From: Microvirga lupini
GTDB lineage: Bacteria > Pseudomonadota > Alphaproteobacteria > Rhizobiales > Beijerinckiaceae
DNA: 64,000 nt
Direction of reading: 5' to 3'
Assembly: GCA_000517005.1 (NCBI GenBank)
Contig: KI912031.1
Coordinates: 149,382-213,381, forward strand
Below are positions 53,660-64,000 of this stretch, one piece after another. A program made the position numbers and the translations under genes. Numbering within the stretch: position 1 is the first letter of the stretch; the number at the start of each line of letters is the position of its first letter. The notes below the pieces were generated by a model that saw only the letters and a list, made by a program, of their open reading frames with translations, did not search any database and had not been told where the DNA came from.

Positions 53660-54145
53660 CTAGCGGGCATTGGCGGATGTGAAACCTGCGGAGGCGGAGA
53701 CGGTGCCGGTTGTGACAGGGTCGCTGGCGCCTGTTCTGAGAGTGTGCAGGAGGCCCTTGCGCTTGGCCTCGTAATAGTAGCCCCCGGCATAAAGTGCGAC
53801 GGCGCGATCCGGATTGCCGCCTGCGACCTTGTAGGCGTTCGCCAGATAGGGGACTGCGTAAGTCAGATTGGTATTGGCATCGAGCAGTCCGGAGACAGTT
53901 CCCCTGTATCCCATGCCGCGCGCCGTGGCATAGCGGATCTGCATGAGGCCGAAATTGCCTTTATGGGATGCGCGTGGATTGTAGCCGCTCTCGCGTCTGA
54001 TGACCCGATGCACCAATGTTTCAGGAATGCCGTGAGCCTTGGCGTGCTGCGCAACGAGCGCATCGATTTGGGCTCGTTCTTCGGATGCCGCTGCGGGCAG
54101 CGTGCAAGCAATCGCTGCGCAGGCGAGAACAAGACGAGAAATCAT
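53660..54145 (-). CDS. Lytic transglycosylase (SLT domain)
   Basis: 161 residues. Signal peptide MISRLVLACAAIACTLPAAA. The SLT domain has the catalytic Glu in VIRRESGYNPRASH, then GNFGLMQIRYATARGMGYRG and AVALYAGGYYYEAKRK. It cleaves peptidoglycan in the periplasm. It lies next to the exopolysaccharide cluster but on the other strand. Confidence 0.9.
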   Translation of the reverse strand: MISRLVLACAAIACTLPAAASEERAQIDALVAQHAKAHGIPETLVHRVIRRESGYNPRASHKGNFGLMQIRYATARGMGYRGTVSGLLDANTNLTYAVPYLANAYKVAGGNPDRAVALYAGGYYYEAKRKGLLHTLRTGASDPVTTGTVSASAGFTSANAR

Positions 54146-54834: not shown

Positions 54835-56145
54835 ATGCAAATCAGTGTTTTTGGGATTGGCTATGTCGGTGCCGTTTCTGCGGCATGCCTAGCCAACGAT
54901 GGCCACAACGTCATTGCAGTCGATCCGAATCCTCAAAAAGTCGGCCCGCTCAACGAAGGCATCAGCCCGATCGTCGAACCGGGGCTGGGGGAGCTTATCC
55001 AAGGAGGCATCAGCAGCAAGCGCCTCATGGCGACGAGCGACGTACGCGAGGCCATTCAAGGGACGGATCTGTCTTTCGTGTGCGTTGGAACTCCCTCGCG
55101 TTCGAACGGCTCTCTCGATACGGCTTATGTGAGCGCCGCAGCAGAGCAGATCGGCGCCGCAATTCGAGAAAAGAACTCCTTCCACTCCGTCGTCATGCGG
55201 TCGACCATTCTGCCCGGCACGATGGAGAGCATCGTGTTGCCCGCACTCGAGCGTGTATCAGGACGTCAGGCGGGCGTGGGATTCGGCATTGCCTATTATC
55301 CTGAGTTCCTGCGGGAGAGCACCGCGATCGCAGATTATTACGATCCAGGGGCGATCATCTTCGGCCGGCACGATCAGGCAACAGTTGATCGGCTGCTCGA
55401 TCTGCACAAGATCTTCAAGGTTGAGCCAAGGATTGTTTCTCTTCGTACGGCCGAAGCCGTAAAATACACGAACAATGCATGGCACGCGCTGAAGATCAGC
55501 TTCGCGAACGAGATCGGTAATATCTGTAAGGAAGCCGGGATCGATGGTCATGCCGTGATGGAGGTACTGTGCGCGGATACGCGGCTGAACATTTCCAAAG
55601 CCTATCTGAAACCCGGATTCGCATTCGGTGGATCGTGCCTTCCGAAAGACCTGCGGGCTCTGCGTTTCGCAGCGCGTAAACTGGATGTGCCCACGCCCAT
55701 CCTCGATGCGACGATGGCAGCGAACGAAGAGCAGCTGCGTCGTGCATACGCGATGGTCGCCGCGACCGGAAAACGCCGGATCGGCATCATTGGTCTGAGC
55801 TTCAAGCCTGAGACAGATGACTTGCGGGAGAGCCCGCTGGTCGAGCTCGCAGAGCGTCTCTACGGGAGAGGCTACGACATCCGCATTTACGACCCGAACA
55901 TTCAGGTCTCAAAGCTGACCGGAGCCAACCTCCAGTTCGTCAAAGCACATCTTCCCCATCTTACCTCGCTCCTGACTGCCGATATCAACGAAGTGATCGA
56001 TCACGCAGAATCCTTCGTTCTCGGCAACCGCGATGAAGCCAAGCGGCTCATAGCTGCCTTGAGTGACGACAGGCCGCTCATCGATCTTGTGCGCATCGAC
56101 CAGACAAGGTGTTCAGGTGACCTTTATCAAGGAATCTGCTGGTAA
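54835..56145 (+). CDS. algD: GDP-mannose 6-dehydrogenase
   Basis: 436 residues, the same length as Pseudomonas AlgD. NAD-binding MQISVFGIGYVGAVSAACLA; catalytic Cys268 in GFAFGGSCLPKDLRAL, the same number as in AlgD; C-terminal GLSFKPETDDLRESPLVELA and end QGICW. It oxidises GDP-mannose to GDP-mannuronate, the committed alginate step. First gene of the cluster; alg8 overlaps its end by 29 bp. Confidence 0.95.
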   Translation: MQISVFGIGYVGAVSAACLANDGHNVIAVDPNPQKVGPLNEGISPIVEPGLGELIQGGISSKRLMATSDVREAIQGTDLSFVCVGTPSRSNGSLDTAYVSAAAEQIGAAIREKNSFHSVVMRSTILPGTMESIVLPALERVSGRQAGVGFGIAYYPEFLRESTAIADYYDPGAIIFGRHDQATVDRLLDLHKIFKVEPRIVSLRTAEAVKYTNNAWHALKISFANEIGNICKEAGIDGHAVMEVLCADTRLNISKAYLKPGFAFGGSCLPKDLRALRFAARKLDVPTPILDATMAANEEQLRRAYAMVAATGKRRIGIIGLSFKPETDDLRESPLVELAERLYGRGYDIRIYDPNIQVSKLTGANLQFVKAHLPHLTSLLTADINEVIDHAESFVLGNRDEAKRLIAALSDDRPLIDLVRIDQTRCSGDLYQGICW

Positions 56146-57661
56146 CAACAGCAGCAACCGGCTGTCAGAGTCGGTAGGGGCGCATGTGCTTTATGTGGTG
56201 GCCGTAGCAGCGTTCGCTGCTGCGCTCCCGCCGCAGGCATATGGCGCCGTAAGCGCCGGTGTCGTTGGAACCATAGGGTTCCTTGCCATCTGGCGCTATG
56301 GATGGGGTTTCCTGCACTTCATCCGTGCGCTCGTCTTCCGCAAGATGGTTTTCCCACGCATGCGGGAGGCTGCCGATGCTGCAGTAAGGCAGGAGCCCCC
56401 CAACGCCTTTCTGCTGGTCACGACCTTTCGTATCGACAGTGCGGTCAGCGCACGCGTCTATCGAGCCGTCTTCGCAGCCGCGCTCGCGGCGCCTGGGAAG
56501 GTGACGGTCGTTGCTTCAGTGGTTGAGGCCGGTGATCAGAGGCTCATCAAAAGCCTGTTCCGAACGATGTGTGGCGACGCGAAAAATGTCGATCTCGTGA
56601 TCGTGAGAATTGCCGGGACAGGAAAACGGGATGCCCTTGCCTATGGCTTCAGGGCCATTGCCCGTCGTGCGCCTGGGGCCGATGATGTCGTTGCCGTCAT
56701 CGACGGCGACAGCATCGTGCCTCCGGATCTGGTGTGGAAATGTGCAGGGTTCTTCCGTCTCGATCAGCAAGTCGGGGCTCTGACGACGGATGAGTTGAGC
56801 GAGGTTCGTGGCCGCCGCATCTTTCAGGAATGGTATTCGCTTCGCTTCGCGCAGCGCCACACCCTCATGTCTTCCGTCGGGCTGTCGGAGCGTGTCCTGA
56901 CCTTGACCGGCCGCATGGCGATGTTCCGGGCAAGCATCATCTGCAATTCCGAGTTCATACGTCAGGTCGAGCTCGACTACATCGATCACTGGCGTCTTGG
57001 CCGATTCAAGTTCCTGACCGGCGACGACAAGTCGAGCTGGTTCTGGCTGCTCCGGAGTGGTTACAAGATGCTCTACGTGCCCGATGTCGTCGTTCTGACC
57101 ATCGAGGATCCCCCCTCGGAGAGTTTCATCTCCGCCGCGGCGATGCTGATGGTACGGTGGTTCGGCAACATGCTGCGCACGAACGCGCGGGCTCTCGCTC
57201 TCGGTCCACGGAGGATCGGGCTGTTCACCTGGTGGGCGATCCTCGATCAACGCATGTCGATGTGGACATCGCTTGTCGGGTTTACACTCGCGCTGATCGC
57301 TGGAATCTTTGTCAGCGGCTATGCGCTCCTGCTCTATGCTCTCTGGATCCTGACATCGCGATACGTCCTGACCCTGTCTCTTTTGGCATCCAGGCCGCGT
57401 GTTTCGGTATTCTACCCCTTCCTACTCTACTTCAACCAGATCTTCGGATCACTGGTCAAAGTCCATGTCACCTTCCGACTGGATCGGCAGAAATGGACGC
57501 GGCAGAAGACCGCCTCGGCGAGGGTGGCGAAGCGCCCCTTTCTCGCAAGCAATTTCATGTCAGCATACATGCATTGCCTTGCGCTTGTAGCATTCGTGAC
57601 GGTTCTCGCTTGGAGCATGGACGTGCTTCCGACACCGAAATCAATGCTCTTCCTTCCTTAA
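56117..57661 (+). CDS. alg8: Alginate polymerase, glycosyltransferase Alg8
   Basis: 514 residues from a GTG at 56117 inside the end of algD; no in-frame ATG exists nearby. GT2 domain with DGD (Asp196, Asp198) in VAVIDGDSIVPPDLV and GDDK (Asp303, Asp304, Lys305) in KFLTGDDKSSWFWLL. Membrane helices lie at about 24-60 and four or so at the C-terminus. It would polymerise mannuronate at the inner membrane with Alg44. Confidence 0.92.
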   Translation: MTFIKESAGNNSSNRLSESVGAHVLYVVAVAAFAAALPPQAYGAVSAGVVGTIGFLAIWRYGWGFLHFIRALVFRKMVFPRMREAADAAVRQEPPNAFLLVTTFRIDSAVSARVYRAVFAAALAAPGKVTVVASVVEAGDQRLIKSLFRTMCGDAKNVDLVIVRIAGTGKRDALAYGFRAIARRAPGADDVVAVIDGDSIVPPDLVWKCAGFFRLDQQVGALTTDELSEVRGRRIFQEWYSLRFAQRHTLMSSVGLSERVLTLTGRMAMFRASIICNSEFIRQVELDYIDHWRLGRFKFLTGDDKSSWFWLLRSGYKMLYVPDVVVLTIEDPPSESFISAAAMLMVRWFGNMLRTNARALALGPRRIGLFTWWAILDQRMSMWTSLVGFTLALIAGIFVSGYALLLYALWILTSRYVLTLSLLASRPRVSVFYPFLLYFNQIFGSLVKVHVTFRLDRQKWTRQKTASARVAKRPFLASNFMSAYMHCLALVAFVTVLAWSMDVLPTPKSMLFLP

Positions 57662-57692
57662 AGAAAATGATACCGATCTGGAGCTTGAGGTC

Positions 57693-58901
57693 ATGACGAA
57701 GATTACGCATGAGGCCGAGGTTCAAAGGCAACATCCTCGATACCGAATTCCGGTTCGATGCATCTACAATGGGACTCAGATTTCCGTTGTCGATGTCTCA
57801 GCCGGAGGGATCGGTCTGAGGGCAGGCTCGTTGGATGTCAAACCCGGTCACATACTCGACCTCACCCTCATCTTTCCGTTCAGCGGTTATGAACTCTCAC
57901 TGCCCGTCAATGCCGAGGTCCGCTATATCACCCAAGAGCACAGCAGGATCGGCCTCCGCTTCGTCGATGTCTCGCCGCGGCAGCATAACCTTCTACGGTT
58001 CATCCTCGACGCCTATCTTGCCGGTGAGGTTGTGGATGCCGGCGACATCCTGGATGTCTCCGCACGCCGGAATGAAGGAAAAACCCGAGAGGTTCCCCAG
58101 CGACCTCAGCCTCAGGGACTGCTGGCTCAGCTGACCCATCACGGGCGCAGTGCGGCAGGCTACATCGGGATCGGCGCCGCAACGATGCTGCTCGTCGGCT
58201 TCATCGGTATGGGGGTCTTCGAGAGGATGTATATCATCCCCGCTCAATCGGCCCTGATCACCGCAGATCTCGTGACCGTGCCTGCTCCCTCGAATGGTCA
58301 AGTCACGTTCATCGCAACTGGCAACGAGGTGAAGGCAGGAGAGCCTCTTTTGACGATCCAGGGACCGCAGGGCAACAGCGTCGTCATCGACAGCCCCTGC
58401 AACTGCGTGATTCAGACGCGTTACAGTCGCACGGCCAATTTCGTCCGGGAAGGTGCGCCGATCCTGGCTCTTCGTGAGAAGACGAGCAAGCCTTACGTCA
58501 CCGCCAGCATTCCTCACGATCAGCTTCTGCGGTTCTACCGCGGGGCCAGCGCGGTGATCGAATATGCCGACGGCACACGTGTGCGGGAAGATCAGATCGA
58601 GCGCTTGCCCTCCCTGGTCAGTGAGACTGCCTCGACCGGCCCGTTCCTCGTCAAGCTCGCACCAGGCCGCGAACTCGAAATGTCCTCCATCGGGCAGCCC
58701 GTATCGGTCGTCTTCGATACGTTCTCAGGGTCCACGGTCGCGACGACGGCCAGCAAGGTGCACGCGGCTATCAACTGGGTAGGGAAAACGATCGCTGCCG
58801 CCCTCGGGCAAGGCAACGAGGTGGTGACGGAACCCAAGAAGGCCAAAGAGCCTGAAACCGGCAGCGGGAGGCGCCTTGCCGGACTGAAACCCACGGAATG
58901 A
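57693..58901 (+). CDS. alg44: Alginate c-di-GMP receptor / copolymerase Alg44
   Basis: 402 residues. The N-terminal PilZ domain has the RxxxR motif (Arg12-Arg16, RQHPRYR) and DxSxxG (Asp34, Ser36, Gly39), so c-di-GMP binding should be intact. One membrane helix (about 157-176) precedes a periplasmic HlyD-like domain with two Cys in SPCNCVIQT. Alg44 must bind c-di-GMP for polymerisation. 31 bp after alg8. Confidence 0.92.
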   Translation: MTKITHEAEVQRQHPRYRIPVRCIYNGTQISVVDVSAGGIGLRAGSLDVKPGHILDLTLIFPFSGYELSLPVNAEVRYITQEHSRIGLRFVDVSPRQHNLLRFILDAYLAGEVVDAGDILDVSARRNEGKTREVPQRPQPQGLLAQLTHHGRSAAGYIGIGAATMLLVGFIGMGVFERMYIIPAQSALITADLVTVPAPSNGQVTFIATGNEVKAGEPLLTIQGPQGNSVVIDSPCNCVIQTRYSRTANFVREGAPILALREKTSKPYVTASIPHDQLLRFYRGASAVIEYADGTRVREDQIERLPSLVSETASTGPFLVKLAPGRELEMSSIGQPVSVVFDTFSGSTVATTASKVHAAINWVGKTIAAALGQGNEVVTEPKKAKEPETGSGRRLAGLKPTE

Positions 58902-58955
58902 TCAGACCTGGGTCACGCTTAGAAGGGCTATCCTTGAATGATTTGGAGATCAGAC

Positions 58956-60374
58956 ATGAACAACATCACTCCGGTTTTGATGTGCGGCGGCTCAGGCACG
59001 CGACTTTGGCCCGTTTCACGGTCCAGCGAACCAAAGCAGTTTCATGCCCTTGCTGGTGAATCCAGCTTGTTTCAGCAGACTGTCCAGCGTTTCCGTGCGG
59101 AACAATATGCTGAGCCGATCATCGTAGTGAATACCAATCATCGCGATCTTGCCTTGCGTGAAATCGGACAATTGAGCTCTGGTGCGGCGCGATTGCTGGT
59201 CGAACCTTGCGTTCGCAGCACAGGGCCGGCGATTGCGGCCGCAGCCGCTTTGATTGCCGAGGAGGACCCGGACCGGCTGATGCTCGTTGCTCCAAGCGAC
59301 CACATCGTGGAGCAAGCCGATATCTTCTCGCAGGCAGTGGCACAGGCAGTGCAAGCCGCGCAGCAGGGACGGATTGTCCTGTTCGGTATCCGCCCGAGCC
59401 ATCCGGAGACGGGGTTCGGCTATATCGAGATTGGCGAGCCTTTCGACGATGCGAGTTTCGAGGTAGCAGGCTTCGTCGAGAAGCCGGTCCGCGCTGTCGC
59501 CGAGAAGTTGATCGCTGGAGAGCAGCATCTTTGGAACAGCGGGATCTTCATGTTTGCCGCCCGCACGATCCTCGATGAGCTTGAGCGACATGCTCCTGAA
59601 GTTCTGGCTAGTGCCCGGCGCGCTCTCGCAACAGCTCAGCGCGGCAATGACACCATCCGTCTTGCAGCTGAGTTCGATACGGCGCCTGTGATCTCGATCG
59701 ACTATGCCGTCATGGAACGCAGCGATCGACTGGTGTGCATCCCGGTTGCGCCCGACTGGAGAGACCTGGGCTCATGGTCTGCGCTCTGGGATATTGGTTC
59801 CAAGGATGGAAACGGAAACGTATCCCGCGGCGATACGCTCCTCCAGGATGTGCGCGACAGCTATGTTCACGGGGCCTCCCGTCTTGTCGCCGTCATGGGT
59901 GTCGAGAAGGTGGTCGTGATCGACACCGCCGATGCCGTTCTCGTCAGTTCCTTGGATCAGGCTCAGAACGTCGGCCGCCTAGCGGCCGAGCTCGCCGCTG
60001 CTAAGCGGCCTGAAGCGAGCCTCCACCGGAAAGTACGCCGTCCCTGGGGCTCCTACGAATCCCTGCGTGTTGGCGAGACTTTCCAGGTCAAGCACATCGT
60101 CGTCGATGTGGCCGGACGGCTGTCGCTGCAATACCATCATCACCGCTCGGAGCATTGGACGGTCGTTTCAGGAACCGCACGGGTCACCGTCGGCGAGCGG
60201 GTCTTCGTCATGACGGCAAACGAGTCCGTTTACATCCCAAAAGGCGATGTTCATAGGCTCGAGAACATCGGCGATGAGGAACTGCACCTGATCGAGGTTC
60301 AGTGCGGCACGTATCTCGGTGAAGACGACATCGTGCGTCTGGAGGATCAGTATGACCGTATCGTCACGAGCTGA
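58956..60374 (+). CDS. algA: Mannose-1-P guanylyltransferase / mannose-6-P isomerase
   Basis: 472 residues from the ATG at 58956 with GGAG upstream. Guanylyltransferase motif GGSGTRLWPVSRS (about 11-23), VAPSDHIVEQ, FVEKPVRAVAEKL, then the cupin isomerase domain with QYHHHRSEHWTVVSGTARV. It makes GDP-mannose for AlgD. In Pseudomonas algA ends the operon; here it is fourth. The next start overlaps its end by 23 bp. Confidence 0.94.
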   Translation: MNNITPVLMCGGSGTRLWPVSRSSEPKQFHALAGESSLFQQTVQRFRAEQYAEPIIVVNTNHRDLALREIGQLSSGAARLLVEPCVRSTGPAIAAAAALIAEEDPDRLMLVAPSDHIVEQADIFSQAVAQAVQAAQQGRIVLFGIRPSHPETGFGYIEIGEPFDDASFEVAGFVEKPVRAVAEKLIAGEQHLWNSGIFMFAARTILDELERHAPEVLASARRALATAQRGNDTIRLAAEFDTAPVISIDYAVMERSDRLVCIPVAPDWRDLGSWSALWDIGSKDGNGNVSRGDTLLQDVRDSYVHGASRLVAVMGVEKVVVIDTADAVLVSSLDQAQNVGRLAAELAAAKRPEASLHRKVRRPWGSYESLRVGETFQVKHIVVDVAGRLSLQYHHHRSEHWTVVSGTARVTVGERVFVMTANESVYIPKGDVHRLENIGDEELHLIEVQCGTYLGEDDIVRLEDQYDRIVTS

Positions 60375-63300
60375 CGGTTTTCGCCGCCTGAGGATAGCAT
60401 CTCTCCTCGTGTCCATGGCGCTCGTCTCGGGTGCCATGGCGCAGGACGGTAACGAGGTCACACGCCTTGCGGAGGAGGCGCGACAGGCCTTCCTTGCGGC
60501 TGAGCAGAACAATACAAGTTCGAAGCAGAAGGCCGCCCTCTATCAGGTTGTCCGGGCGAGGATCAGGCTCCTGGAGAAGTTTGCCGGCCAAGGCGCTTTG
60601 GGATCGGGTGAATTCCGGGATGGTGCGCGCGCGGAACTCACGCGCCTGGCTGACGAGGGGCTCGATCATGACATGATCAGCGCGATGCTTCTTCAAGCTT
60701 CGATCGGGGACCTCGCTGGGATCCAGGCCGGAGCCGATCGCGTGGAAGTCGGTGTGGCCTTCCATCAGGTCGCAAGTGAACAGAGATCGCCGGCCTACCG
60801 GGCCGCTGCCTTTGTTGAAGTCGCCTATGCCTATACCAAGGCAGGTCTTCAGGACCGTGCATTGAGATATGCATCCTTGGCGCTCGAAACGGCCGAGTCG
60901 ATCTCCGAGATCGGTACGCGCGCGGGTGCCCTGAACGCTGTAGCGCGGGTCACGTCCGGACTCGGAATTCGTGGAATGGCTTTGGCAAACCGAGCCATCG
61001 GCCTGATTCCGACAGGTCACGGTCAGGCCTATGCCCGTCAAGCGCTGGCGCGAGAGCAACTCAAGGGCACCGCCCTGGAGAAAGCGCCTGAAGCTAAATT
61101 GAAGATCGAAGCCAAAAAGCGCATGGCCATGGGAGACATGGCTGCCAGCATTTCTTTGGCTCTCGCATTGCCGAATGGCAGAGAACGGGATGACATTCTC
61201 TCGGCCTTGCTCGATGCTGCCATCGAGCGTCAGGACCGGGAGAGCGCACTTGCGGCGGCGCAAGGCTTCTTCGACAGCGCCAAGCAGAAAGCAGCCCTGG
61301 CGGTGATCGTGAAGAATGCCGCGGAGCGTGGAACGCCGCTCCAGGCTGCCGAACTTGTCAACAGCATGGAGGATGGTCAGGGAAAGACCTCACTCCAGGT
61401 CATTCTCGCTACTGAACTGAAGAAGGCCGGCTATGACAGGATGGCTGAGCAGCTTTCCTGGACAGGTTCGAACAGCAGTCCCGATTCCGGCGGAAAGATA
61501 GATCATCACGAGGCGGGTCAGCAAACCTCAGAAGGTAAGATTTCCAAACGGGCAGACGAACCCCTTGCTCTGTCCGAGGTCAAGAATCTCATTGCGCAGA
61601 AAAAAAGAACGCAATCTTCGGATACATCGTTGTTAGCCGGCCTCAGCAAAGTATCCGACGACAACGACAAGGCGGACATTGCTCTTGAGCTCGCCGCTTT
61701 GCCTGAAACGAGTGCGTATGCTGCCGACCTAGTCCGTTCCATCACAGACGACCGCATTCGCGTGAAGGCCTTCAGGCGTGTGGCCGAGATCCGGGCCAAC
61801 CACCTCATGAAGTCTTCGAGCAATGAACCCGGTGCAGGCTCCGAAGACACTGACTTTGCGGTTCTCGCCTCCGAGGAAGCCACTCAGGAGCTTCAGACCC
61901 GCAGAGGTGTTGCGCTGATCAGGATGAGCGCGGCACAGCCTGCAAATGCTAGCATTCAGATGCCAAAGGAATTCGCAACATCGGCCGAGGTCCGGGCAAA
62001 GACGCCATGGCCTAGTGGTGCGGTTGTCGGGAGCACCTTCGCCAATCATAATCCCTATATTGCAAAGTTCCTCGAAGATTCTGAGGGCGGGGGCATGCGC
62101 CTTGAACAGGCGATCCAGTACCAGGGTTCGCCGTCGCCGCGGGTTATTGTCGTTCAGAGCGGAACGACGACCTTGGGCATGGTCGCACGCCAGTTGCAGG
62201 GAACCGATGCGCGCGATCTGATCGGCTATGAAGGCAACGCTCTTGTTGTCCGAGCTCCCATCTTCGTTGCCCCAGGCGCGACGCTCGTCCTGTCGCGCCT
62301 AGACGTGCCGGTCTACAGATTGAGCGCCAATGCCGGGGCGTTCATCGCCAATGCGGGCGAAGTCGACATCGTTGATGCGGAGATTGTGGGTTACGATGAA
62401 AAGGCAGGACAGCCTCTGTGGTCCGACAATGAGAGGTCAGGTCTGTTCCGTCCCTTCCTTCTGACTTGGGGGGATGGCCGTATGCATGTGGCCTCCTCCG
62501 TTCTGACTGCCTTAGGCTATGACGATTTCAAGTCGTTCGGACTGACTTACTCGTCTGGTCCGGATCGCGTCGCCGAGTTTCGGGACCAGGCCCGCCCGAC
62601 CGGAACTGTTGTCGATAGCGTGTTTCGCAATCTCTATGTCGGCTTTCACTCCTATGAGGCCGAACAGGTCCATGTTGTCGGGAATGAGTACCGGGACAGC
62701 ATCGTCTATGCGGTGGACGCTCATGATGGATCCAAAGGGAACGTCATTGCCTTCAACACGGTCTACGGGACCATAGGCAGGCACGGGATTACAATCTCCC
62801 GTGATGCCGATGACAACCTGATCGTCGGGAATCTCTCATTCGGCAATGCGGGGTCCGGAATCGTCCTGGATCGCAACAGCACGAACAATATCCTTTATGC
62901 CAACAGTTCATTCCAGAACACCCAGGATGGATTGACGGTCTTCGAGAGCTCCTGCAATGTTTTAGCGAATAATCATCTTGCAGGAAACAGGCGAGATGGA
63001 TTGAAGATACGCAACAGTTTCGACGTCGGGGCATACGGAAACAGGATCGAAGCCAACGCCAGTGCCGGTGTGAGCGCCTATATTGCGAACATTTCCAAGG
63101 GATCAGATGGCCAGAGCGGCGATGCCGGACATTATGCTCCCATGACCGGTCTATCGCTCAGGAACAACAGCTTCTCGTCGAACGGCGTCGGGATCAACAC
63201 GCAAGGTGTTTCAAGCCTTGCCATGTCTTCCAATTCTTTCGTGAAGCAATCCCGTCGGCTGCTTGGCGGTGACATCCGTGGGCTGGAAGGACCGATTCTG

Positions 63301-63504
63301 CGCCTCGCTTCTCAGGGCGATGTGCTTATCGCAAGCACCTGCCGACCAGCAAAACCCGTCTTGTCCTGCCGTCTGCAGGACATGGGCTACTTCGATGGCG
63401 AGATCAATCGTCAGATCTTCGGCGCTCAGGCAGGATCCGATTGCACCGACGTCAAGGGAAGCATTCAACAGCGAGCCTTCTCCAGCTCTTCTCAAGGGAC
63501 TTAA
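60352..63504 (+). CDS. algG: Helical-repeat protein fused to AlgG-like mannuronan C5-epimerase
   Basis: 1050 residues from the ATG at 60352 (GGAGG 6 nt upstream), about twice AlgG. Signal peptide ending SGAMAQ. Residues 25-400 are tandem helices with TPR/Sel1-like Ala-rich spacing (for example YAYTKAGLQDRALRYASLAL); 400-545 is a linker. Residues 550-1050 are an AlgG right-handed beta-helix with GAFIANAGEVDIVDAEIVGY, FRPFLLTWGDGRMHV and HGITISRDADDNLIVGN. The catalytic motif reads DAHD (789-792) instead of DPHD. The epimerase turns mannuronate into guluronate in the periplasm; the helical part could stand in for AlgK. Confidence 0.88.
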   Translation: MTVSSRADGFRRLRIASLLVSMALVSGAMAQDGNEVTRLAEEARQAFLAAEQNNTSSKQKAALYQVVRARIRLLEKFAGQGALGSGEFRDGARAELTRLADEGLDHDMISAMLLQASIGDLAGIQAGADRVEVGVAFHQVASEQRSPAYRAAAFVEVAYAYTKAGLQDRALRYASLALETAESISEIGTRAGALNAVARVTSGLGIRGMALANRAIGLIPTGHGQAYARQALAREQLKGTALEKAPEAKLKIEAKKRMAMGDMAASISLALALPNGRERDDILSALLDAAIERQDRESALAAAQGFFDSAKQKAALAVIVKNAAERGTPLQAAELVNSMEDGQGKTSLQVILATELKKAGYDRMAEQLSWTGSNSSPDSGGKIDHHEAGQQTSEGKISKRADEPLALSEVKNLIAQKKRTQSSDTSLLAGLSKVSDDNDKADIALELAALPETSAYAADLVRSITDDRIRVKAFRRVAEIRANHLMKSSSNEPGAGSEDTDFAVLASEEATQELQTRRGVALIRMSAAQPANASIQMPKEFATSAEVRAKTPWPSGAVVGSTFANHNPYIAKFLEDSEGGGMRLEQAIQYQGSPSPRVIVVQSGTTTLGMVARQLQGTDARDLIGYEGNALVVRAPIFVAPGATLVLSRLDVPVYRLSANAGAFIANAGEVDIVDAEIVGYDEKAGQPLWSDNERSGLFRPFLLTWGDGRMHVASSVLTALGYDDFKSFGLTYSSGPDRVAEFRDQARPTGTVVDSVFRNLYVGFHSYEAEQVHVVGNEYRDSIVYAVDAHDGSKGNVIAFNTVYGTIGRHGITISRDADDNLIVGNLSFGNAGSGIVLDRNSTNNILYANSSFQNTQDGLTVFESSCNVLANNHLAGNRRDGLKIRNSFDVGAYGNRIEANASAGVSAYIANISKGSDGQSGDAGHYAPMTGLSLRNNSFSSNGVGINTQGVSSLAMSSNSFVKQSRRLLGGDIRGLEGPILRLASQGDVLIASTCRPAKPVLSCRLQDMGYFDGEINRQIFGAQAGSDCTDVKGSIQQRAFSSSSQGT

Positions 63505-63513
63505 GCGCGCAGC

Positions 63514-64000
63514 ATGATTCGGATCCTTGCCTTCTCGATCCTGAGCCTTCTTGCAACGGTGCCGTCCTATGCTCAGACAAAGGGGCAGGGACTGTTCGAT
63601 GTCGAGGCTCGACACATTGCGCTCGCACAGCCTGCCTTTGCGAGCGTCCGAGCTGCCTGCCTCGCGATCCCTCGCGATCCTTCTTGGGTAAATCTCAGGC
63701 CTATCGACAGGTTCTCGGCCGAAGGTTCAGGCACGGATGGAGGCGCAAATAATTATGCATGGGCCGTCATGGTGCTGACCGGGCGAGCTCTGGCTGGAGA
63801 CCCGGCATCGGAAACATCCCTGCGCGATCTTCTACTCGCCTGGGCCAAAGCGAGAGCCTTCGAGAACACGGAAGACGAGGGAGGCGCTTACCATGCTCTG
63901 AAGCGCGTGCTCCTGCCGACCATAGCGGCCTATTCCGTGCTGCACCGTAGCTTAGACGAGAGCCAGCGACAGATCGTTTCGAGGTGGGTCGTTTCTCTTG
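63514..64000 (+). CDS. AlgL-like alginate lyase family protein, partial
   Basis: Open to the window edge; 162 residues seen. Signal peptide MIRILAFSILSLLATVPSYA. The mature part has helical alginate-lyase-like features: NNYAWAVMVLTGRALAGD, LLLAWAKARAFENTED and GGAYHALKRVLLPTIAAYS. AlgL clears misplaced polymer from the periplasm and usually sits in alginate operons. It starts 9 bp after the algG fusion. Confidence 0.65.
   Translation, partial: MIRILAFSILSLLATVPSYAQTKGQGLFDVEARHIALAQPAFASVRAACLAIPRDPSWVNLRPIDRFSAEGSGTDGGANNYAWAVMVLTGRALAGDPASETSLRDLLLAWAKARAFENTEDEGGAYHALKRVLLPTIAAYSVLHRSLDESQRQIVSRWVVSL

Follow-up and report, generated by a model that had tools for sequence, protein, structure and literature searches.

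Gene content and extent of the module

Microvirga lupini is a soil and root-nodule bacterium, and alginate is a seaweed-type gel polymer. The window analysed here, a stretch of 64,000 nucleotides at contig positions 149382-213381 of an M. lupini genome of 9,633,614 bases in 160 contigs, carries an alginate-type synthesis module that runs past its right edge. Reading of the contig beyond this edge to approximately 83,500 in window numbering (about 19.5 kb, with open reading frames of at least 150 or at least 170 residues) established that the complete module comprises nine genes, algD-alg8-alg44-algA-algG-algL-selA-selB-selC, which extend over 17,032 bases (17.0 kb) from 54835 to 71866. The original prediction of six adjacent core alginate genes was confirmed, as all six lie on the forward strand where they had been placed and each name is backed by profile or structure searches; correct, too, were the position of algA as the fourth gene and the tight overlap of genes, algD and alg8 sharing 29 nt and algA and algG 23 nt with the starts chosen here. 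The start of alg8, a GTG at 56117, was picked from relatives (the open reading frame tool lists 56063), and the tool's starts also differ for algA (58938) and algG (60319).

The 436-residue product of algD (54835 to 56145) matched the GDP-mannose dehydrogenase 1mfz at 470 bits (4.8e-140, residues 1-436), as compared to 258 bits for the best UDP-glucose dehydrogenase, and also matched TIGR03026; these matches assign it to the GDP-mannose type. The algA gene (58956 to 60374) encodes a mannose-1-phosphate guanylyltransferase/mannose-6-phosphate isomerase of 472 residues, which matched the NCBIfam model GMP_PMI (TIGR01479) at 590.6 bits against a cut-off of 372.95, and both enzymes by which alginate systems supply GDP-mannuronate are present in the module. 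The presumed mannuronan polymerase gene alg8 (56117 to 57661) encodes a family-2 glycosyltransferase of 514 residues that matched Pfam Glyco_tranf_2_3 at 6e-33. The profiles tried include none dedicated to Alg8, and none of them fired for this protein or for an undoubted Alg8; the name was given because it is 46-50% identical to 12 rows of family f215 (probably Pseudomonadaceae) that adjoin AlgD and Alg44: eleven f215 loci (L154-L164) show algD-alg8-alg44 in sequence, and in the single locus tested (L155) the Alg44 beside Alg8 matched solved Alg44 at 1e-31. The assignment as polymerase is supported further by a joint clade with the f215 rows in the Alg8 tree, and best-segment identity is 51-66% to other Rhizobiales and 49% to the copy of the alphaproteobacterium G155. 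The co-polymerase gene alg44 (57693 to 58901; 402 residues) yielded Pfam matches to PilZ (1.8e-10) and HlyD_3 (2.4e-05), and its PilZ domain matched the Alg44 PilZ structure 4rt0 at 2.8e-12 with the QRQxxR and DxSAGG motifs conserved, so that it is assigned to the type that binds cyclic di-GMP, and binding of this nucleotide is predicted. Ten loci of relatives (L104, L109, L110, L111, L114, L115, L116, L117, L119 and L122) contain, between AlgA and AlgG, another gene with weak similarity to Alg44 (19-27% identity).

Of the 37 genomes of the genus, 17, the window's included, gave a full-length Alg8 and G004 a fragment; the copy of M. lupini AT3.9 (L085) is just 83% identical to that of the window. 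The order AlgD, Alg8, Alg44, AlgA, AlgG is the same in all 16 relatives (L024-L039) as far as their contigs reach, a short contig cutting AlgD in L029. The left border is marked by a transglycosylase SLT gene outside the module, on the reverse strand at 53660 to 54145 (PF01464, 7e-15), a close copy of which (68-87% identity) is present in 10 of the 20 genus genomes without full-length Alg8. In five of these ten (L178-L182) the site is empty, the left-flank gene lying approximately 360-400 bp from the luxR-type gene of the right flank with no alginate gene between them, while in one (L177) the contig ends and in four (L183-L186) the neighbouring flanks were not recognised as those of the window. 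In the same neighbourhood G004 holds a half-deleted module (L187:10963-14771) with AlgD and AlgA kept and remnants of Alg8 and Alg44, and in which AlgG, AlgL and Sel1 genes were not found. The module borders were set by the empty sites and this half-deleted copy, and the module seems to have been lost or gained as one block.

The epimerase and the nature of the polymer

The algG gene (60352 to 63504) encodes a protein of 1050 residues, longer than solved AlgG proteins, in which an N-terminal helical-repeat solenoid (approximately residues 32-487) is followed by an AlgG beta-helix epimerase domain (approximately 530-965). It matched the NCBIfam model epimerase_AlgG at 7e-75 (252.6 bits, under the 700-bit cut-off of the model) and the solved AlgG 4ozz at 3.4e-59 and 9.8e-60. 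In an AlphaFold2 model built from 19 sequences (mean predicted local distance difference test score 79.8, predicted template modelling score 0.77) the beta-helix aligned with AlgG 4nk6 over 421 residues at a VIA-align Z of 40.8 and a root mean square deviation of 1.9. Residues D789, H791, D792 and R817 are invariant in all 19 aligned AlgG proteins, and the protein thereby retains the His and Arg columns of a mannuronan C5-epimerase, with H791 and R817 being what we take to be the catalytic pair (His319/Arg345). The best matches of the solenoid, modelled alone, were generic repeat proteins (top Z 11.0, root mean square deviation 10.0); AlgK structures were not among the rows listed in this comparison, which in that respect proves nothing.

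Clusters of related Rhizobiales bear on the identity of the polymer. Of 15 stretches compared downstream of the genes (L135-L149), four (L138, L140, L141 and L148) encode a long protein of secreted type, alike in all four, either immediately behind the Sel1 genes or with one gene in between, and the one tested, from L140, has RTX repeats and matched AlgE4 (2pyg) at 3.3e-86 as well as AlgE6. PL7 alginate lyases with RTX repeats are encoded in L140 and L142. This association holds for the relatives; the part of the Microvirga contig that was read showed neither secreted epimerases nor PL7 lyases. Because secreted mannuronan epimerases or PL7 lyases adjoin the genes in some related Rhizobiales, alginate, a polymer of mannuronate and guluronate, appears the likeliest product. 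It might instead be another polyuronate made by alginate-like enzymes with a changed substrate, for which the identity of just 46-50% between Alg8 and the f215 rows could be cited together with the DPHD motif of AlgG, whose proline is replaced by alanine in three Microvirga species (the window's, M. sesbaniae (L073) and VF16 (L074)), as well as by leucine in L076 and by threonine in L085. Such a change of substrate is unlikely, given that AlgD is of the GDP-mannose type and AlgA supplies GDP-mannose, that the acidic, His and Arg columns of AlgG are intact and that an AlgE4-type epimerase and PL7 lyases adjoin the genes in relatives.

Lyase, Sel1-repeat proteins and selection

The algL-like gene, which starts at 63514 on the forward strand, is cut by the window edge at 64000 and ends at approximately 64608 (L001:10896-11990), encodes a polysaccharide lyase family 5 (PL5) protein of 364 residues that matched Pfam Alginate_lyase (PF05426) at 1.3e-17. 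In family and length it agrees with the PL5 lyases A1-III and AlgL; it differs from them at three catalytic positions, His192/202 and Arg239/249 being replaced by Gln and Tyr246/256 by His, in columns fixed by aligning the proteins with A1-III, with the A1-III mutants 4f10 and 4f13 and with 7fi2. With these columns replaced, the protein of the window strain is not predicted to be an active PL5 lyase, and it would be either a catalytically dead remnant or a structural pseudo-enzyme. The protein of the window was compared with 37 others detected at 1e-30 among 59 loci, 22 of which gave no AlgL at this threshold, although some of these hold a more distant AlgL-like gene. The Asn-Asn-His, Arg and Tyr are kept in 34 of the 38 (14 of 18 from Microvirga, that of L085 among them, and all 20 others), the exceptions being the window (Asn-Asp-Gln, Arg to Gln, Tyr to His), M. 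sesbaniae (Thr-Gly-His, Tyr to His), VF16 (Asp-His-Gln, Tyr to Phe) and M. arsenatis (Ser-Ser-His, Tyr to Phe). AlgL gave no match in M. flocculans (L035), and G036 (L039) retains only a remnant corresponding to residues 259-330 of the window protein (41% identity).

According to one report, Pseudomonas aeruginosa AlgL with His202, Arg249 or Tyr256 changed has no detectable activity in vitro, and in cells producing alginate the changes at Arg249 and Tyr256, but not His202Ala, hurt growth, the harm arising from a build-up of periplasmic alginate, so that a functional AlgL is described as required for viability during alginate synthesis (PMC8829089). Another report describes AlgL as dispensable, its loss raising the yield (PMC5099689). 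As far as these two sources go, the four Microvirga species in which AlgL residues have been replaced would constitute a natural test of their disagreement.

Downstream of algL, and outside the window, lie selA, in two overlapping frames (approximately 64590-66440 and 66413-67531; L001:11972-14913), selB (67543-70446) and selC (70499-71866), all of which encode Sel1-repeat proteins according to a Pfam scan. The original prediction that algK and algE are missing between alg44 and algG holds for that interval, but AlgK-like Sel1 proteins are present 3' of algL. The strongest similarity to AlgK is that of SelB (NF038194, 2.4e-28), but at 99 bits against a cut-off of 700 bits, and the lipobox that is a feature of the AlgK-type scaffold lipoprotein was not seen by eye in the Sel1 proteins. 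A role of these proteins as outer-membrane barrels was also considered and rejected, as no barrel domain was found in them.

Selection on the module was assessed through ratios of non-synonymous to synonymous substitution rates (dN/dS) for three pairs within the three-species group of the window as compared to three other Microvirga pairs. The values were 0.146-0.194 versus 0.069-0.082 for AlgL, 0.041-0.052 versus 0.021-0.028 for AlgA, 0.091-0.136 versus 0.038-0.077 for Alg44, 0.158-0.180 versus 0.096-0.116 for SelB, 0.145-0.154 versus 0.112-0.129 for AlgG, 0.116-0.135 versus 0.089-0.102 for SelC, 0.045-0.074 versus 0.043-0.048 for Alg8 and 0.022-0.029 versus 0.018-0.028 for AlgD. Judged by these ratios, constraint is looser for most module genes in the window's group, in a manner not special to AlgL, and it is far from gone. 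A decaying relic from which this species no longer makes polymer would be consistent with the lost AlgL active site, the two frames of selA, the absence or half-deletion of the module in sister genomes and the dN/dS of AlgL, AlgA, Alg44 and SelB, which is approximately 1.5 to 3 times that of the other pairs. We nevertheless regard this as improbable, as the values for AlgD, AlgA and Alg8 point to strong purifying selection, the remaining genes have open frames, all 16 relatives retain the gene order as far as their contigs reach, and the selA frameshift may be a draft error; in addition, M. lupini LUT6T is reported to form moderately mucoid colonies on one medium (PMC4149012).

Export, distribution and the proposed pathway

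The expectation that AlgI, AlgJ, AlgF, AlgX and AlgE might lie beyond the right edge was not upheld: none was found in the approximately 19.5 kb read, the borders are set by the empty sites, and the AlgX/AlgJ (PF16822) and AlgF (PF11182) profiles found nothing in the whole genome. The absence of export and acetylation genes downstream had been named at the outset as a finding that would speak against an alginate cluster, as had nearest relatives of Alg8 and AlgG in a non-uronate polymer family; the former is what was observed, whereas these relatives proved to be alginate proteins. The genes after selC, two luxR-type regulators, a GMC oxidoreductase and a branched-chain amino acid permease, were rejected as the site of an exporter, as they also flank empty sites or share a module-free neighbourhood. 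Among 16 module-bearing Microvirga PF16822 matched in one (G009, on a separate contig) and PF11182 in none, the latter being found in all three comparison genomes, while the AlgE profile PF13372 matched in two of nine, both times unlinked to the module. The PF13372 copy of the present genome, on contig C61 amid isochorismatase, patatin, Fe-ADH and MFS genes and absent from seven of the nine, was rejected as the exporter. For AlgI (MBOAT) there was no candidate in the stretch read past the edge, the genome not having been searched for it as a whole. As controls, PF16822 and PF11182 detected their targets in G453 and G463, and all three profiles did so inside the G196 cluster.

Another set comprised 23 genomes that encode an Alg8 relative (five Microvirga, 16 other Rhizobiales, one Billgrantia and one cyanobacterium), and PF13372 exceeded its cut-off in two of them, VF16 again and G460, where the copy and Alg8 are on different contigs; the match in R. 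mesoamericanum covers 46 positions, is below cut-off and contains an internal stop. The cluster of R. mesoamericanum (L095/L135) resembles that of Microvirga in having neither AlgX-family nor AlgE genes above the cut-off. An AlgE-family barrel over the cut-off was thus found in none of 15 of the 16 non-Microvirga Rhizobiales cluster genomes, the sixteenth having one on a separate contig, an absence by profile that is compatible with a very divergent barrel. The BBP2_2 barrel (PF10082) was found in none of 16 Microvirga. A gene for such a barrel adjoins the alginate-type cluster of G155 (L070:860-2215), and a relative with 29% identity lies near Alg8 in L112 (L112:6328-7638), which makes it a candidate alternative exporter in these two lineages. 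As a common exit it was rejected, as in the 13 other Rhizobiales genomes with matches none shares a contig with the first Alg8 copy; in Rhizobium Root274 both matches are on contig C7 with a second Alg8 copy, more than 200 kb apart. This strain and R. tibeticum both have AlgX-family genes within approximately 10 kb of a second Alg8 copy.

The lack of AlgE in the module, of a BBP2_2 barrel in all 16 Microvirga and of AlgX in this genome might be taken to indicate that the polymer is made and epimerised but retained in the periplasm, with no exporter. We consider this quite improbable, as clusters of the same Alg8 clade adjoin an RTX epimerase (L140) and RTX PL7 lyases (L140 and L142), suggesting an extracellular polymer there, and as loss of Arg249 or Tyr256 of P. 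aeruginosa AlgL is described as harmful through periplasmic alginate (PMC8829089), yet AlgL appears dead here. Given the absence of AlgX/AlgJ and AlgF, acetylation of the product is improbable.

Alginate operons of Pseudomonas and Azotobacter have the order algD-8-44-K-E-G-X-L-I-J-F-A. With these the module has in common AlgD, Alg8, an Alg44 with PilZ, the fold and catalytic columns of AlgG, AlgA, an AlgL-family gene and AlgK-similar Sel1 proteins, and by its gene complement it is predicted to work like alginate synthesis up to epimerisation. It differs in the fourth position of algA, the absence of AlgE, AlgX, AlgI/J and AlgF, the extra solenoid of approximately 450 residues in AlgG, the three Sel1 proteins after algL and the lost catalytic residues of AlgL, and was filed as a variant rather than a standard alginate operon because AlgE, the acetylation genes and an active lyase, all defining features, are lacking. 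Some sister clusters in other Rhizobiales retain acetylation genes, namely those of Devosia (L092/L136), Pararhizobium (L102/L137), Chthonobacter (L104/L139), Labrenzia (L109/L143), Rhizobium mongolense (L115/L144) and the second copy of R. tibeticum (L152). These six share with Microvirga a related Alg8, Sel1 proteins and, except for the R. tibeticum second copy (506 residues), a long AlgG, and their genomes likewise lack an AlgE-family barrel over the cut-off; unlike Microvirga, each of them has genes similar to AlgX, AlgJ and AlgI (backed by Pfam in the case of L136), and AlgF is present in both clusters scanned for it, L136 and L144. A survey of 1733 genomes described 'atypical' alginate operons without outer-membrane (algKE) or modification genes, which resemble the Microvirga module in having lost outer-membrane and acetylation genes; in the available text these are placed, by a figure legend, in deep-sea bacteria, no Sel1 expansion or AlgG fusion is mentioned, and Rhizobium is named once, in the reference list, for cellulose (PMC7112194). 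We found no paper on Rhizobiales alginate clusters in the open-licence literature, although such work may exist.

A Rhizobiales host had been considered unexpected, which does not fit the distribution found: one contig scan gave 59 loci, of which 18 were from Microvirga, 33 from other Rhizobiales, two from alphaproteobacterial bins, five from Halomonadaceae and one from a cyanobacterium. The distribution is nonetheless patchy, as the AlgG profile matched in 3 of 385 genomes drawn class-wide, Alg8 in 24 of 398 drawn phylum-wide, and of 24 genomes sampled from the order's other families only two gave a match, in both cases a divergent one; an Alg8 relative is also present on 14 plasmid records, nine of them from Rhizobium. 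In an 88-row Alg8 tree, the outcome of one tree search, the 19 Microvirga rows (window included) form one clade (100/100) nested in a mostly Rhizobiales clade of 54 rows, separate from the f215 clade, which is joined by the rows of G155 and G196, both alphaproteobacteria. Given this position, it is not favoured that Microvirga imported the module from f215. Three further kinds of cluster were noted. G196 (L053), an alphaproteobacterial genome of 2.0 Mb, has almost all of the classical alginate genes, distributed over both strands in an unusual order, with AlgE (PF13372), two AlgX-family genes (PF16822), AlgF (PF11182), AlgG, Alg8, Alg44, AlgD, AlgL-like and AlgI-like genes, and AlgA in two frames. 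Billgrantia/Halomonas loci (L125-L129) hold a more distant Alg8/Alg44 cluster (Alg8 39-42%) with AlgL-like and Sel1 proteins and without an AlgG match. Two loci from the same order as Microvirga, L040 and L041 (G052 and G060), hold a divergent Alg8 (36-40%) and an Alg44-like gene, the G060 stretch also AlgD and AlgA relatives, and may represent another polyuronate system.

Taken together, it is probable that the module is a cyclic di-GMP-gated alginate synthesis module of a Rhizobiales type, independent of AlgE, with a dead AlgL and a product that is probably unacetylated. AlgA would make GDP-mannose, which AlgD would oxidise to GDP-mannuronate for polymerisation across the inner membrane by Alg8 and its PilZ partner Alg44; the solenoid-fused AlgG would then epimerise mannuronate to guluronate residues in the periplasm, where SelA, SelB and SelC may form a scaffold replacing AlgK, and the polymer would exit, if at all, through an outer-membrane route other than AlgE. 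Several points weigh against this interpretation: AlgG has DAHD instead of DPHD; SelA and SelC fit other Sel1 models (MerG, MotX or ExoR) better than AlgK; selA, a single frame of 980 residues in M. sesbaniae and VF16, is split in this draft, which may reflect a real frameshift or a draft error; and the dead lyase, the split selA, the 20 of 37 genus genomes without full-length Alg8 and the raised dN/dS mark the system as dispensable and possibly in decay in this species. More tentatively, and short of what we would call probable, there may exist an AlgE-less alginate branch scattered in the Rhizobiales, in which several large Sel1 solenoids and a solenoid-fused epimerase take the place of the AlgK-AlgX-AlgE conduit and pass the polymer on to an outer-membrane exit from a family new to alginate, the Microvirga version having nine genes, no acetylation and, in some species, no working clean-up lyase. 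The reduced gene set may yield a non-acetylated alginate, and if the exit were identified, a further outer-membrane route would be available for comparison among synthase-dependent polysaccharides. These findings suggest that alginate-type synthesis is not just a trait of Pseudomonas and Azotobacter and extends well into the plant-associated Rhizobiales.

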